Positions 3,146 to 38,630 of a stretch of DNA of 38,630 nucleotides are shown in pieces (within the stretch, counting starts at the first letter, position 1; each line of letters starts with the position of its first letter). The notes beneath the pieces are model-generated. The model made no database searches. It was not told the origin of the DNA and saw only the letters and a program-made list of their open reading frames with translations. The stretch lies in contig PFAJ01000064.1 in assembly GCA_002773695.1 (NCBI GenBank), positions 2,017 through 40,646 on the forward strand, in the 5' to 3' direction. The position numbers and the translations under genes are program-made. The DNA comes from Candidatus Doudnabacteria bacterium CG10_big_fil_rev_8_21_14_0_10_41_10 (lineage in GTDB: Bacteria > Patescibacteriota > Doudnabacteria > UBA920 > 2-01-FULL-50-11).

Positions 3146-3190
3146 AAAAAAAAGACCCACTTCAGCTCACAATGTGAACTCTAGCGGGTC
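3146..3190 (-). terminator. Rho-independent terminator overlapping the HD gene stop codon
   Basis: Minus strand GACCCGCT...AGTGGGTC followed by TTTTTTTT; the stem includes the 3' end of the coding sequence. Confidence 0.75.
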
Positions 3191-3805
3191 AACGGGCTGC
3201 CAGGTTCTGACAGCATCGCAAGCAACCTGAAGCGCCCGAGAATCGGGCATGGCTCCGAGAAGACTTGCGGCTTCTTCAAAGCGCTCTGCGGTCTTGGGCC
3301 GCCCGGCTTTTTGAGCTTCGGTCCAACCAAAGCCGACGGCATCGGCGGCGGACAGGAGCATCCACTTCAGGAACGCTCCTTCACTACCGAGGTGTTGCGC
3401 GATAGTCTCGGGTCTTGCCTGATAAGCAAGCCCGTGCCATTTGATCGCGGCGACGTCATCGCCCGGAAGGCAAAGTACCTTCAAAGCATAACCAGCTGAG
3501 CGGTTCTCGTGGCCGACATAAAGACGATTGGTCCCCTGCCCAGCGTCGACGAGACGGCACGCCTCGGGAAATTGTTTGATCTTCCCGATGTCGTGAAGCG
3601 CCGAGAGGCGGACAAGGTCGAAGTCGAGCTCAAGTCTCTGCTCAATCCGCTTTGCCGCTTCGATGACGGCGTACATATGACCAAGAAGGCCATAGACGTG
3701 CCACTTGGGTGCGTGGTCGCGCGGATCGTCGGCAAGCAGCCTTTCGTGGGCGGCTCGCGACAGGGCGCCTGACGCGTATGCGACAACTTCTTCGATGCTT
3801 CGCAT
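3167..3805 (-). CDS. HD-domain phosphohydrolase-like protein
   Basis: MRSIEEVVAYASGAL.. preceded by AAAAAGGAGGAGCG; HD-type motifs GHMY..SALHDIGK..GHENRS..KWHG..SAADAVG. The ORF track start at 3916 is upstream of the probable start. Confidence 0.8.
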   Translation of the reverse strand: MRSIEEVVAYASGALSRAAHERLLADDPRDHAPKWHVYGLLGHMYAVIEAAKRIEQRLELDFDLVRLSALHDIGKIKQFPEACRLVDAGQGTNRLYVGHENRSAGYALKVLCLPGDDVAAIKWHGLAYQARPETIAQHLGSEGAFLKWMLLSAADAVGFGWTEAQKAGRPKTAERFEEAASLLGAMPDSRALQVACDAVRTWQPVDPLEFTL

Positions 3806-3890
3806 CGCTCCTCCTTTTTCAGTTTTATCTTTAGAAAATAGCACCCGGGGGAGAGCCGACAAAAGTGTCGACTCCCCTACCCGGGTAGGT

Positions 3891-5042
3891 CTAGCGTGAG
3901 CGAGCAATCCCGCCAAGCGTGGCCGCCGTGGCGCGGTTGTCGTGACGGCGGTCCTGCTGTTGCCCGCCGGAGCTGGTCCAGCGGGTGTTGGTGGTGAGGA
4001 TGGCCTGGATCTGGCCGTCAGATAGTCCCGTGGGTGTAACCCCTTGGAACTGCCAGGACCCGTTCATTAGCATCTGGCTCCGGCCGCCGTCAAACCGCGT
4101 CTCGTAGTACCACCGCGTCGGTTCGCGACGATCCAATTCGGCAAAGACGCCACTCAAATCCGAATCCTTGTGCCGAAACGACGGCTGGATGTGCGCGTGG
4201 CCGTTGGGGCCGCGCAGCACGCCGAGGGCGAACCTGCCGGAACCGAGGAATTGGTACGACACGGCTGCCGCCTCAAAGTAGTTCCCGACGGCAGCGACGA
4301 ACGCCGGCTTACCGCAGACTTGGAACTTCTGCAGCTCGTACCGCTTCTTCCGCGCCTCGGCGTGCAGATTTTGCACCTGCTTGCCCTTTTTCATCCACCA
4401 AGTCACCTTGGCGATGATGTCGGCCTCCGGCCGGCCGGACATAAACAGCCGGCGAAAGTACATGGGAACCGTGAAGGGCTGTACGTCCTTCTCTTGGACG
4501 TTGAAGCCCTCCCAGAGCCGGTGGAGTGTGACGAACTTCGGGTCGGAGAAAAGCGCGTTCCAATCGCGCCTGTTCTGCCGCCAGAAAAAGCTGTTCACCA
4601 CGTCCATCATCTTGTCCCAGAAGAACTCCTGGGACACGATGGGATTGGTCGCGGTGTGGTAGGCCTCCCGGATGAGCTTGGCGGTCGAGTACGGGAACTG
4701 CTTCAAAAATCCCGTTTCGTTGTTGCGGTTGGCGAGGCCAACCAGCTGATTCCAGACCGCTCCCCCTTCCACGGAGGAAGCGAGCCTCGCCATTTCGGCG
4801 GCGCTCTGGAAACCCTTGTGGTACTTGCCGTCGCCCACGTCGATGAGGACGGCGGTGCGGTCTTCCGAGCATATGGCGTCCCACTGCCGGTAGTGCTCCG
4901 GCGTCGGGATATTGACGTCGCAAAACGCCATCCGCACGCGAAAGAAAGGCCCGAGGTCCAGTGCCACGCGCTTGGCGGCGACGTACTTGTCCACCGGCGG
5001 CAGCGCCGGTACCACTACACAAATTACAGGTTTGCTTTCCAT
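3891..5042 (-). CDS. Uncharacterised protein, divergent DHH/Myg1-like homologue lacking the canonical DHH motif
   Basis: 383 aa with AGGAGG upstream. Same order of elements as ORF 5381-6430: PxxPPVDKYVAAKRV, AVLIDVGDGKYHK, GxLRGPNGHAHIQPSF, WYYETR..LMNGSWQFQGVTPTGLSDGQIQAI. Confidence 0.65.
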   Translation of the reverse strand: MESKPVICVVVPALPPVDKYVAAKRVALDLGPFFRVRMAFCDVNIPTPEHYRQWDAICSEDRTAVLIDVGDGKYHKGFQSAAEMARLASSVEGGAVWNQLVGLANRNNETGFLKQFPYSTAKLIREAYHTATNPIVSQEFFWDKMMDVVNSFFWRQNRRDWNALFSDPKFVTLHRLWEGFNVQEKDVQPFTVPMYFRRLFMSGRPEADIIAKVTWWMKKGKQVQNLHAEARKKRYELQKFQVCGKPAFVAAVGNYFEAAAVSYQFLGSGRFALGVLRGPNGHAHIQPSFRHKDSDLSGVFAELDRREPTRWYYETRFDGGRSQMLMNGSWQFQGVTPTGLSDGQIQAILTTNTRWTSSGGQQQDRRHDNRATAATLGGIARSR

Positions 5043-5152
5043 TTTTCTTCCTCCTAGGAAGTTGTCCCAGGCTTATCAGGCCTGGTACGGTTGTAAGCTA
5101 CGGTTTTCGGTCAGTCGCAAACTTCGCGCAAAGACCGATTGACTTGTGACTC

Positions 5153-5210
5153 AAACAGCCACAATGTTATCCTGAAAAATTTCAGAACAAGATGTGGCTG
5201 TTTTGTTTTT
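5153..5210 (+). terminator. Terminator-like hairpin on the plus strand
   Basis: AACAGCCACAATGTT...AAGATGTGGCTGTTTTGTTTTT; no plus-strand gene seen upstream. Confidence 0.45.
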
Positions 5211-5221
5211 GTCTTGGTTGT

Positions 5222-5351
5222 TGTTCTCGCGAAAGCGGGGGTCTAGGTTTATTGTTCGAGCGACCTGCCCGCCATTCGCCTTCGGCAATGCCGATGGCAG
5301 GCGGGAGTCGAGAACCTGGATTCCTCCGCCTAGGCGGATGGGAATGACAGA
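5222..5351. repeat. Composite dispersed repeat with a second palindromic repeat nested inside
   Basis: Outer TTCTCGCGAAAGCGGGGGTCTAGG...CCTGGATTCCTCCGCCTAGGCGGATGGGAATGACA; inner GTTCGAGCGACCTGCCCGCC...GGCGGGAGTCGAGAAC. Confidence 0.75.
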
Positions 5352-5380
5352 CCTAAAAGGTGCGGGGTGAATTTTTATTT

Positions 5381-6430
5381 TTATTCAATTATCGTCACGC
5401 CCTTGTCTCTCGTTACCTTATATCCACCGCCGTTTCCCCTCTCCCGAAAGTTCCCTCTCCGCGTCCTCTCGACATTCAGCCCCTGCTTGGTTACCTGCTC
5501 AATTTCTTCGTAAGTAAGTTTGGTTGCCGGAATTCCTTGCGGCTGTACTCCCCCGTTCTGCAGGGTATTGGCCCGCGCGTCATAAAACCAGTGCGGCAAC
5601 CCCTCAGTGCGTCCCGGGGCTTCCAAATCTCTCTCGGAATCTACCGGCAAAACAATATCATTTTTTTGCGCTTCCAAAAGCTTGATCAACCTTGCCAGCT
5701 TTCGTAAATCCAATCTGGCGGCTTGCCTGGTAATAAAATTAACATGTCCGCCTTTTGCTTTTTGGACAACAAGGTCGGCGCCAACCGCTTTGCTTCGAAT
5801 GTATCCCGCCAAGGCCGGGTTATCGGATTCAATATAAACAACTTTCAAATTCCTTCCAAGCTGAACCGCGTTGAACTTTTTCGCTCTTCCCGACTTTACC
5901 AGCTCCTCAAATTCTTTCGGCAGTATTTCGTGACGGCGATTTTCCTCGGCATAATGCCCTGCCAAAAGCGGTAAAACAATTTCTAAAATCTGTTTCGGGT
6001 CGTCTGGAATAGATCTGTTCAGATTGGTCAGCAATGCGGACAAACCAAACGCCCGATCGATCGGGTCGCTGGATAAAATCCCTTTACCTTCCAAATCGTC
6101 TCTTCGTGCAAAATCCAAAAGCTTCCGCAAATCCGGCCTGTCGTCCACTTCCAAAAATTTGGCGACCATATGGGCGGAAGAGATTGTCCGATTGTTTTGT
6201 CCTAGCCGATGATGGTCAAATTTGGAGCCTCCCAAATCCAGCAAAATATAGCCTTCCCGCTCAAGTTGATCGGCGGTTTTATCTTCAGGAACCTCGGCCC
6301 AAAATTCGACATTCGCCTGCCTGACCCCTGGGAACTTTTCATCACCAAAATATTTCAGCAAAAAATACGACACAGCGGTGTCTATTTGAATCTTTGGAAA
6401 CATTACAATTGTCCTGTTTTGTGCCACCAC
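5381..6430 (-). CDS. DHH/Myg1-like predicted phosphoesterase
   Basis: FPKIQIDTAVSYFLLKYFG and YILLDLGGSKFDHHRLG motifs typical of DHH/Myg1-type proteins; the real start may be the internal ATG (MFPKIQ). Confidence 0.65.
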   Translation of the reverse strand: MVAQNRTIVMFPKIQIDTAVSYFLLKYFGDEKFPGVRQANVEFWAEVPEDKTADQLEREGYILLDLGGSKFDHHRLGQNNRTISSAHMVAKFLEVDDRPDLRKLLDFARRDDLEGKGILSSDPIDRAFGLSALLTNLNRSIPDDPKQILEIVLPLLAGHYAEENRRHEILPKEFEELVKSGRAKKFNAVQLGRNLKVVYIESDNPALAGYIRSKAVGADLVVQKAKGGHVNFITRQAARLDLRKLARLIKLLEAQKNDIVLPVDSERDLEAPGRTEGLPHWFYDARANTLQNGGVQPQGIPATKLTYEEIEQVTKQGLNVERTRRGNFRERGNGGGYKVTRDKGVTIIE

Positions 6431-6450: not shown

Positions 6451-6479
6451 ATTATAGCATAAACTATAAATCCTGTCAA
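6451..6479 (-). promoter_or_regulatory. Consensus sigma70 promoter for the DHH-like gene
   Basis: Minus strand TTGACA-N17-TATAAT, ~20 bp upstream of the start codon. Confidence 0.8.
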
Positions 6480-6509
6480 TAAAACCAACGAGGGTAACCC
6501 TCGTATGCC

Positions 6510-36214: not shown

Positions 36215-38630
36215 TTATTCGGGTGGGATCTCTATAAACTCCGGTGATTTTGATGTTTGGGTTTTTGCCAGTAAAATAATCCTGGCAGAAAACGGTATCG
36301 CTCCTGGATCGTAAGTACCGAACGTGTCGATAATAACCAACTCACGAGGCTGAGTAGTCAAGGTGGAAACTGTAGCATCAAACGTAACTGTAAAAAATTC
36401 ACCTGTAGATAAAATGCTTGGATAAGTAAAATTATTATAATTACCAAAGCACAAACCCGGACAGGAAAAATTGGTAATACTGGAAATGTTAGCAGACGCC
36501 GAGATCCCTGCTTTAACTTGAGTCGCGTCCCCCGGCCCGTCATTTCGATATGTGATACTGAAATTTAAGATGTCCCCGTCTTTGATGTCGGACAAACTGA
36601 ACGAACCTGATCCATTGACTGCCGAAATTGATACAGCGACGTTAGGAATCGGAACAGGTGGGGCATCTACGGTATAATCAACCGGAACAGTCTGGTTTGC
36701 GGCGTTTGGTTCGGAAATTGTCACGGCGCCGGTGTAGTTACCTGGCGCAAAGGAGGTGTCAGTGACAGAAACTGTGAATACCCGATTGGCGCCGGGAGCC
36801 ACAGAGAAAGTGGTTGGGGCAACAGAGATCCAAGAGCGATTGTCAGATATGGTAAAGTCTAAATTTTGATCGCCGGTGTTTTGTATGGTTACATTTTGAG
36901 AAGCCGGGTTAGGCCCATTTTGCTCTGCTGAAAAATTCAAAGAGGAAGGTGCTTTGTTAAAGGTGTAAATAGGGGCTCCCGCCAAAGGAGTCAATTGAGA
37001 CTGCGGGACTATGGCTTTGGGGGTTTGTGGCGAGCTCCAAAAAAGCTGGGCAACACCAAATACGGTATTTTCAAAATATTCCATACGAATCGGATACTTT
37101 TGGCCAGCGATTAAATTGATAGTCGCGGTGTGTTCAGTGGGTGGCTGGGCAAACCATTTATCTATCAGTAAAATACCATTCACCCATAATCTAACTCCAT
37201 CATCTGTGAGTATGTAAAATGTGTAAGTTTCTGTGCACCGGGCTTCAATCTCCCCTTCCCAACGAACAGAGAAAGTGTCTCCTCCACCGGCATAAGTAGT
37301 CCCAATAGGATCTGATGGGTTAAAATTGATTGTGGCATCGATATGCTGGTTGGTTTGAGAATTGAAATTTGTTCCATTAAAAACCGTTGCCGTTAAACCG
37401 GTTCCGATTCCGGCGGCGTTGCAACCAACCAGTGGAACGCCATTTACTGTGTAATCAACCGCGACCGTCTGGTTGCCAGCGTTTGGTTCGGAAATAGTGA
37501 CGGTGCCGGTATAGTTGGCCGGGGCAAGCGAGGTGTCGGTGACAGAGACTGACACTACTCGATTGGCGCCGGGGAGCACGGAGAAAACAGCTGGGACGAT
37601 GGAGATCCAAGAGCGATCATCAGAAAAAATAAAACTTAGATCTTGGTTGCCGGTGTTGGTTATAGTTACGTTTTGAGAAGCGGGATTTCCAGCACCTTGG
37701 TTAGCAGAATAGCTAAGAGATGCGGGGGCGCGGGTAAAGGTATAGTTTAGACCGGCACTCACAGTATAATTAACCGTGACCGTCTGGTTTGCCGCGTTTG
37801 GTTCGGAAATGGTTATGGTGCCGGTATAACCTGCTGGCGCAAGCGAGGTGTCGGTAACAGAAACTGACACTACTCGATTGGCGCCCGGGAGAACAGAGAA
37901 AACGGTTGGAGAAATGGACATCCAAGGACGGTCATCAGATAGAGTAAAGTTTAGAGTTTGGTTGCCAGTGTTTTGTATAGTTACATTTTGAGAAACTGGA
38001 TTTGGGTCATTTCGGACAGCGGAATAGTTAAGGGTTGCGGGGGCGCGAGTGTAGGTGTAGGTAGGCCCGACCGGTGATGGGGTCAATTGAGACTGCGGAA
38101 CTATGGCTTTGGGGGTTTGTGGCGAACTCCAGAAAAGCTGGGCGACGGAAGTCACGCCGCCTTCGAAAAAATCCATGCGAATAGGGTACTTTTGGCCGGC
38201 GATTAAATCGATTGTTCCGCTGTATTCAGTGGGTGGATGGCCAAACCATTTATCTACCAGTAAAACCCCATTTACCCACAGTCTGACTCCGTCATCTGTT
38301 CGGGCGTAAAAAGTGTAAGTTTCCGTGCACTGGGCTTCAATCTCTCCGTCCCATTTAACAGAAAAATTATCACCACTGCCCGTATAGGTAACCCCGATAG
38401 GATCTGCCGGATCAAAATTGATTGTGGGGTCGACATGTTGATTTACATGAGGAGGGAAAAATACTCCATTATAAACCGTCGCGGTCAAGCCGGTTCCGGA
38501 TCCGGTGGGATTACAACCGACTGGTGGAGGACCATTTAAAGTATAATTAACCGCGACCGTCTGGTTTGCCGCGTTTGGTTCGGAAATGGTTATGGTGCCG
38601 GTATAACCTGCTGGCGCAAGCGAGGTGTCG
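36215..38630 (-). CDS. Large surface protein (N-terminus beyond window) with alternating PA14-like and BACON-like repeats and a DUF11-like C-terminus
   Basis: PA14-like GLTATV(Y/F)NG..DGVRLWVNG(V/I)LL(V/I)DKWF.. twice; BACON-like blocks ~4 times; the frame stays open from 38488 to 38630 (DTSLAPAGYTGTITISEPNAANQTVAVNYTLNGPPPVGCNPTGSGTGLTATVYNG). Confidence 0.88.
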   Translation of the reverse strand, partial: DTSLAPAGYTGTITISEPNAANQTVAVNYTLNGPPPVGCNPTGSGTGLTATVYNGVFFPPHVNQHVDPTINFDPADPIGVTYTGSGDNFSVKWDGEIEAQCTETYTFYARTDDGVRLWVNGVLLVDKWFGHPPTEYSGTIDLIAGQKYPIRMDFFEGGVTSVAQLFWSSPQTPKAIVPQSQLTPSPVGPTYTYTRAPATLNYSAVRNDPNPVSQNVTIQNTGNQTLNFTLSDDRPWMSISPTVFSVLPGANRVVSVSVTDTSLAPAGYTGTITISEPNAANQTVTVNYTVSAGLNYTFTRAPASLSYSANQGAGNPASQNVTITNTGNQDLSFIFSDDRSWISIVPAVFSVLPGANRVVSVSVTDTSLAPANYTGTVTISEPNAGNQTVAVDYTVNGVPLVGCNAAGIGTGLTATVFNGTNFNSQTNQHIDATINFNPSDPIGTTYAGGGDTFSVRWEGEIEARCTETYTFYILTDDGVRLWVNGILLIDKWFAQPPTEHTATINLIAGQKYPIRMEYFENTVFGVAQLFWSSPQTPKAIVPQSQLTPLAGAPIYTFNKAPSSLNFSAEQNGPNPASQNVTIQNTGDQNLDFTISDNRSWISVAPTTFSVAPGANRVFTVSVTDTSFAPGNYTGAVTISEPNAANQTVPVDYTVDAPPVPIPNVAVSISAVNGSGSFSLSDIKDGDILNFSITYRNDGPGDATQVKAGISASANISSITNFSCPGLCFGNYNNFTYPSILSTGEFFTVTFDATVSTLTTQPRELVIIDTFGTYDPGAIPFSARIILLAKTQTSKSPEFIEIPPE

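Follow-up and report, generated by a model that had tools for sequence, protein, structure and literature searches.

A conserved pair of DHH-family paralogues, one lacking the DHH motif, as a candidate two-subunit phosphodiesterase in Patescibacteria

The stretch of DNA analysed here (38,630 nucleotides, hereafter the window) is contig C45 of the 1.08-Mb genome of Candidatus Doudnabacteria bacterium CG10_big_fil_rev_8_21_14_0_10_41_10. It carries three consecutive minus-strand genes, which a reading of the sequence alone (hereafter the sequence-only reading) had singled out and which are present where it had placed them. In the order of transcription, they code for a DHH-like protein of 349 amino acids (aa), a 383-aa protein and an HD-domain protein (Table 1). 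The start of the HD gene is most likely the ATG at 3805, preceded by a AGGAGGAG ribosome-binding site, and a TTG at 3916 is disfavoured. Neither of the first two proteins is named by any Pfam, NCBIfam or PHROG family.

Table 1. The three genes and the associated signals in the window
Feature	Coordinates	Strand	Details
DHH-like 349-aa protein, putative catalytic subunit	5381..6430	(-)	GTG start
383-aa DHH paralogue, putative pseudo-catalytic subunit	3891..5042	(-)	ATG start
HD-domain hydrolase (predicted), 212 aa	3167..3805	(-)	Pfam PF01966
Sigma-70-type promoter of the DHH gene, TTGACA-17-TATAAT, extended -10	6451..6479	(-)	12/12 consensus, TG ahead of the second hexamer
Terminator-like hairpin between the module and rplL, upstream of the DHH promoter	6488..6504	(-)	7-pair stem, T-rich tail
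Intercistronic RNA hairpin, DHH/pseudo-DHH gap	5150..5205	(-)	Fold z-score -5.6
GC-rich intercistronic hairpin, pseudo-DHH/HD gap	3842..3886	(-)	Minimum free energy -38.4 kcal/mol, z -4.6

Homologues were collected by whole-genome searches (379 and 95 genomes) and by one scan of GTDB contigs. When the two proteins were compared alone by BLASTP, only the C-terminal WYY..NG..Q.QG stretch was aligned (E = 0.002). Profile-profile comparison with hhalign aligned them over their whole length, with Prob 97.9 and E 6e-13 for the smaller sequence sets, and with Prob 99.4 and E 8e-22, end to end over 278 columns, for the larger ones. In this pairing, DKYVA, IDVGDGKYHK and NRNNETG of the 383-aa protein face IDTAV, LDLGGSKFDHH and RRDDLEG of the 349-aa protein, respectively, so that the ordered set of shared motifs reported by the sequence-only reading is real. 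By this profile homology, the 349-aa and 383-aa proteins are true paralogues. Throughout, residues of the two proteins are equated according to the larger-set hhalign alignment, whereas those of NrnA are assigned by motif order.

DHH-family enzymes cut short DNA, RNA or signal nucleotides. Structure models of both proteins were built with AlphaFold2 (AF2) from home-made alignments, and in Foldseek both match the DHH/DHHA1 superfamily rather than unrelated folds. The 383-aa model (predicted local distance difference test, pLDDT, 83.2; predicted template modelling score, pTM, 0.80) matches pAp phosphatase, RecJ, family II pyrophosphatase and Cdc45 along its full length: Foldseek gave the pAp phosphatase 8a8k (E 1.7e-6, prob 1.00) and RecJ (4e-5), and VIA gave Z 12.9 to 5yh1 (270 residues, 4.0 Å) and Z 12.2 to PggH and RecJ-Cdc45. 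As for the 349-aa model (pLDDT 85.8, pTM 0.75), its superfamily match is weaker than that of the 383-aa model and is best in the DHHA1 part, where residues 169-322 lie at 3.4-3.9 Å from Ppx1, NrN and the Thermotoga maritima phosphodiesterase (PDE). Its Foldseek matches were 6mtz (E 8.7e-5), the family II pyrophosphatase 1k23 (8.9e-4) and 8a8k (1.1e-3), and its whole-chain VIA matches mostly have root mean square deviations of 12-20 Å, the domain orientation being uncertain. Each of the two proteins is thus predicted to have a DHH plus DHHA1 fold.

The residues of the active centre separate the two paralogues. The 349-aa protein keeps D17, D65, D72-H73-H74 and D112, that is, five (D17, D65, H73, H74 and D112) of the seven metal and active-site residues of NrnA (H20, D24, D26, D80, H103, H104 and D156), with D65 and D112 at the positions of D80 and D156. 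It has F11 and Q15 where NrnA has H20 and D24. The sequence-only reading had taken this partner to be the catalytic one; its DHH motif is present, but motif I is degraded, its histidine and first aspartate being lost, and the protein is not fully canonical. D17, D72, H74 and D112 do not vary among the 16 DHH members aligned, and the close subfamily retains H73, which suggests that the metal site is still under selection; full canonical sets of residues are found in the wider-family members G493 and G496. Homologues of the 349-aa protein were detected in 13 of 145 sampled relatives.

In the 383-aa family, by contrast with its sister, the DHH motif is absent from all nine aligned members, as had been noticed for the window protein, and the motif IV aspartates are replaced by asparagines (NN) in every one of them, including the position of NrnA D156. 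These asparagines open a new motif, NNxTGxxK (N107-N108-x-T110-G111-x-x-K114), which is invariant in the nine proteins together with S80, W311, N327 and G328, in spite of a mean identity of 25%. By its motifs, the 383-aa protein is thus a pseudo-member of the fold and not an enzyme of the family. In NrnA, the D80N/D156N double mutant still binds dinucleotides and does not cleave them (PMC9757072), so that asparagine in motif IV would be compatible with a binding subunit.

The pseudo-protein was found in ten genomes or loci (G000, G001, G019, G152/L044, L036, L037, L038, L040, L043 and G412), and in all ten a DHH partner lies adjacent to it or one gene away. All strong matches to the 383-aa family in the 379 and 95 genomes adjoin a DHH gene, and G412, which was found by the pseudo-protein profile alone, has its DHH partner as well. 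Gene order is variable, with the DHH gene first in the Doudnabacteria relatives and the pseudo-gene first in most others. The nine aligned pseudo-proteins form one clade (support 100/100) and the pairwise divergences of the two partners correlate (Mantel r 0.49, p 0.007), the pseudo partner evolving much faster (mean identity of 25% vs. 46% for the DHH partner). Elsewhere in the family, the DHH motif or active site has been lost again, twice in G129, in G462/G422 and in G503/G456/G501/G506. In some ultra-small Patescibacteria, the sampled pseudo-protein is thus always encoded near its DHH sister, from which we infer an obligate pair. The catalytic/pseudo-catalytic pair put forward by the sequence-only reading is upheld at this level by profile homology, predicted DHH/DHHA1 folds, a single pseudo clade and a DHH partner in 10/10 genomes. 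Neither of the two outcomes that this reading had named as refuting it, unrelated predicted folds or a pair never conserved elsewhere, was obtained. Concerning a phage or plasmid origin, no relatives were found in viral contigs; searches of phage records with the DHH protein of the window, and of plasmid records with a distant member of the family, gave none either. No defence neighbours were recognised around the module, no dedicated PADLOC search having been made.

The third gene is less constant. Its product matches PF01966 above the cut-off (E 1.6e-4), and its ligands H36, H43, H71-D72, H99, H124 and D155 are invariant across three homologues; by this match and these conserved residues, it is an HD superfamily hydrolase. 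Its best sequence matches in the PDB are weak ones to Cas3 HD domains (E 0.0035). The HD gene had been described as sitting with the pair, which is true of the window, G001 and L040, i.e. of three of the ten genomes, and not of the others: the HD partner is optional. Among the 379 sampled genomes, strong matches were obtained in G000 and G001 only, and this type of HD protein is hardly seen elsewhere in the phylum sample, although its apparent enrichment is partly circular, since three of the four HD-bearing genomes contributed to the profile and only G393 is independent. In G393, the HD homologue is unlinked to the pair and is a divergent neighbour of uvrB (L083:2259-5335); the pseudo-DHH/DHH pair of the same genome (L036) is a divergent neighbour of uvrC.

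With a confidence that stops just short of even, we propose that the pair is a two-subunit DHH/DHHA1 phosphodiesterase or nuclease acting on short single-stranded nucleic acid. The 349-aa protein would be its putative metal-dependent catalytic subunit, and the fast-evolving 383-aa paralogue, from which the DHH and motif IV ligands are gone, its obligate non-catalytic partner. Through the retained DHHA1 domain and, at the former active centre, the NNxTGxxK site, this partner would bind, gate or recruit the substrate, and the optional HD protein might serve as an accessory phosphohydrolase, providing a second hydrolase. Given the position of the wider family between uvrC and uvrA (see below), this substrate would most likely be one that arises in DNA repair, the complex trimming, for instance, single-stranded DNA ends or degrading the oligonucleotide that UvrABC excises.

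No family model was used for the uvr genes, whose identification relied on sequence similarity and on visual recognition of well-known conserved sequences. In a first count, made post hoc, 5 of 32 loci had such a gene at a distance of up to 6 kb, where 1.3 were expected. New loci were then fetched and their neighbours clustered without bias. In total, uvrC and/or uvrA lie within 1.6 kb of 15 of the 63 DHH loci (about one expected), with uvrC divergent and upstream at all nine loci that have it and uvrA codirectional and downstream at all nine of its own. Among the 222 neighbouring open reading frames (ORFs) of the 63 loci, uvrC and uvrA rank first and second, the next family being present in four genomes. 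In the last locus set (S5), which was gathered and inspected for uvr genes after the idea had been formed, 9 of 16 loci have a uvr neighbour. These neighbours suggest a nuclease that is linked to nucleotide excision repair (NER), and as a whole the genomic context points more to DNA repair than to tRNA, RNA-linked neighbours and fusions being found in few relatives. A broader scenario, in which we place distinctly less than even confidence, is that the DHH protein is a standing, hitherto unrecognised member of an NER cluster (uvrC, DHH, uvrA) in Patescibacteria, which some lineages duplicated to form an obligate catalytic/pseudo-catalytic heteromer and which lost its active site repeatedly elsewhere, in parallel with RecJ/Cdc45. 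No published description of a uvrC-DHH-uvrA arrangement in these bacteria was found, most subscription papers and preprints being outside the search.

Several observations weigh against a catalytic role in repair. At least five of the eight further genomes tested have uvrC and uvrA close together and divergent without a DHH gene, so the linkage may trace back to one ancient insertion into an ancestral gap; a reading as independent insertions is weakened by the same adjacency. The Poisson P values assume independent loci and hence overstate the uvr link. The window pair itself has no uvr gene nearby, and the uvrA of its genome is on contig C19. At five of the 15 uvr-linked loci, the family copy is without DHH, and catalysis would be dispensable there. 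The presumed catalytic subunit lacks two of the seven NrnA metal ligands, and the genome already encodes a canonical RecJ and an NrnA-like DHH protein, the only proteins retrieved by a Pfam DHH search, which would make the pair an extra DHH system. Finally, some relatives have a context that suggests RNA instead: a 2H-phosphoesterase/tRNA-ligase-CPD-like domain is fused to the DHH protein, N-terminally in L046 (7443-8957) and C-terminally in G086 (L030:8193-9623), and truD, which codes for a tRNA pseudouridine synthase, accompanies the family in one genome, G129. There, at two paralogous loci (L033:9173-11963 and L089:213-2700), a DHH-less family protein overlaps a downstream truD-like gene. 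No family model was used to name the L046 domain and truD, which were recognised visually and from the similarity of the loci to one another.

This RNA-linked context supports the first alternative, namely that the pair and the HD protein turn over RNA or signal nucleotides, degrading nanoRNA, 2',3'-cyclic or cyclic-dinucleotide species in the manner of NrnA, GdpP, PgpH or NrN, and have no role in DNA repair. The fusions, the truD genes and a 2H/HVSL-like plus uridine-kinase-like fusion gene near the pair of G152 (L044:9695-10990) leave room for a role with RNA or cyclic nucleotides. The nearest solved folds also fit it, being those of pAp phosphatase, the pGpG-specific PggH, the T. maritima PDE, SAM-AMP-bound NrN and GdpP, as does the H-H-HD-H-H-D ligand pattern of the HD protein, which we take to resemble that of two-metal HD enzymes. 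Nevertheless, each RNA context is confined to one or two genomes, vs. 15 loci for uvrC/uvrA, and an NrnA-like protein is already available in the genome; we regard this alternative as unlikely, if still a serious one. More improbable is a pair that is non-catalytic as a whole, both proteins being nucleic-acid-binding or scaffold subunits, by analogy with Cdc45 and with those archaeal RecJ homologues that were inactivated. The loss of the motif I histidine and aspartate in the window protein would agree with it, as would the repeated loss of DHH at loci that kept their uvr location, the Cdc45 and RecJ-Cdc45 matches of the 383-aa model, and the several inactivations of archaeal RecJ homologues, whose genomic context is conserved (PMC3307487), but the invariance of D17, D72, H74 and D112, the retention of H73 in the close subfamily and the complete canonical sets of the wider family argue otherwise. 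Least probable is a changed chemistry, in which the NNxTGxxK/S80 site of the 383-aa protein would perform a new reaction or sense a ligand: the nine residues listed above are invariant in its family at a mean identity of 25%, but they could merely maintain a binding surface, the support is all from sequence, and we know of no catalytic precedent for such a site.

For the two-subunit phosphodiesterase proposed above, the best precedent, by analogy, is found in Haloferax volcanii, where RecJ3, RecJ4 (which is without active-site residues and present 1:1) and aRNase J form a complex that acts as a 3'-5' exonuclease, degrades RNA and single-stranded DNA and serves survival of DNA damage (PMC10470531). 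The likeness lies in the combination of an active DHH paralogue, an inactive one and a third, unrelated hydrolase, which is aRNase J in Haloferax and would be the HD protein in the window. RecJ3 and RecJ4 differ in carrying S1/OB domains (arCOG00429), whereas the window proteins are short bacterial DHH-DHHA1 chains of a putative complex. With NrnA, Pde2, PggH and NrN, the window proteins share the two-domain architecture and the size, and the DHHA1 part superimposes on NrN and the T. maritima PDE as given above; on the other hand, the close subfamily is not recognised by Pfam DHH, has PQxD or PHxD for PDxD in motif I and a distinct C-terminal WYYD..NGG, and has an obligate pseudo-paralogue alongside. 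The best structural matches of the pseudo-subunit include RecJ, archaeal GAN and Cdc45 (VIA Z 10-12), among which inactivated DHH domains are likewise retained as structural subunits. Membership of RecJ itself (DHH-DHHA1-OB, ~550-750 aa) was rejected: at 349 and 383 aa, the window proteins are about half that size and have no OB-fold domain, their models showing only a low-confidence C-terminal tail beyond the core, and the canonical RecJ is encoded elsewhere in the genome.

The label of Myg1-like paralogues, given by the sequence-only reading, was abandoned. Neither protein matches PF03690 at E up to 1, nor does any A3 or A8 member, and hhalign to two real MYG1 proteins gave 26% over the N-terminal 128 columns. 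Shared with MYG1 are the DHH motif, this weak N-terminal profile match and, for some family members, a motif I of the His-x-Asp type, but the signature of the C-terminal domain differs and true MYG1 genes are separate in related genomes, L045 having both. Three distant members of the wider family (L061, L062 and L063, of G187, G391 and G204) match both Pfam DHH and the ChrB C-terminal domain (PF09828), each near threshold (for ChrB, E 3e-5, just under the cut-off), which suggests that the latter may be a DHH-like fold. The window proteins differ in having no PF09828 match, and no chromate-resistance context was seen.

As to the signals around the genes, the promoter of the DHH gene was called as a consensus match only, and TTGACA-type promoters were also found upstream of the DHH genes of G001 and G019. 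The gap between the DHH and pseudo-DHH genes folds strongly in the window (z -5.6), G001 (-5.8) and G019 (-5.9), a similar two-part stem being kept across genomes while the sequence has diverged; the MAFFT alignment of intergenic hairpins from different genomes was poor. The gap of G001 that corresponds to the pseudo-DHH/HD gap folds well too (z -5.8). The strong hairpins in the module gaps of the three genomes (z -4.6 to -5.9), at 5150-5205 and 3842-3886 of the window, L034:1583-1660 and L035:1205-1275, have no clear U-tracts. It is possible that they are processing or regulatory elements. Rfam recognised three tRNAs in the window and no known family of cis-regulatory RNAs.

Other observations concern repeats and a distant gene. 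Inside the 338-bp DHH/pseudo-DHH gap, positions 5220-5370 hold a dispersed repeat-like sequence (GTCATTCCC...GGAATCCAGG, translating as VIPDLFGDPG), and similar sequence seems to be present at 1351-1635 and in L036. A minus-strand ORF at 2616-2966 consists of near-perfect tandem repeats, with FSTRLEICD occurring several times, and is probably not a gene but a repeat array. A large open-ended ORF at 36215-38629 contains a PA14-like stretch (FYARTDDGVRLWVN) and probably codes for a surface protein.

If the proposal is true, bacteria would have, in an obligate active/inactive DHH pair, a parallel to the archaeal RecJ3/RecJ4 pair and to RecJ/Cdc45, and this small soluble system would make it possible to test why inactive sisters are retained by DHH nucleases. 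To our knowledge, the repair biochemistry of the Candidate Phyla Radiation is almost unexplored, and the uvrC-DHH-uvrA arrangement would provide a concrete, testable candidate for a missing post-incision step of NER in this group.

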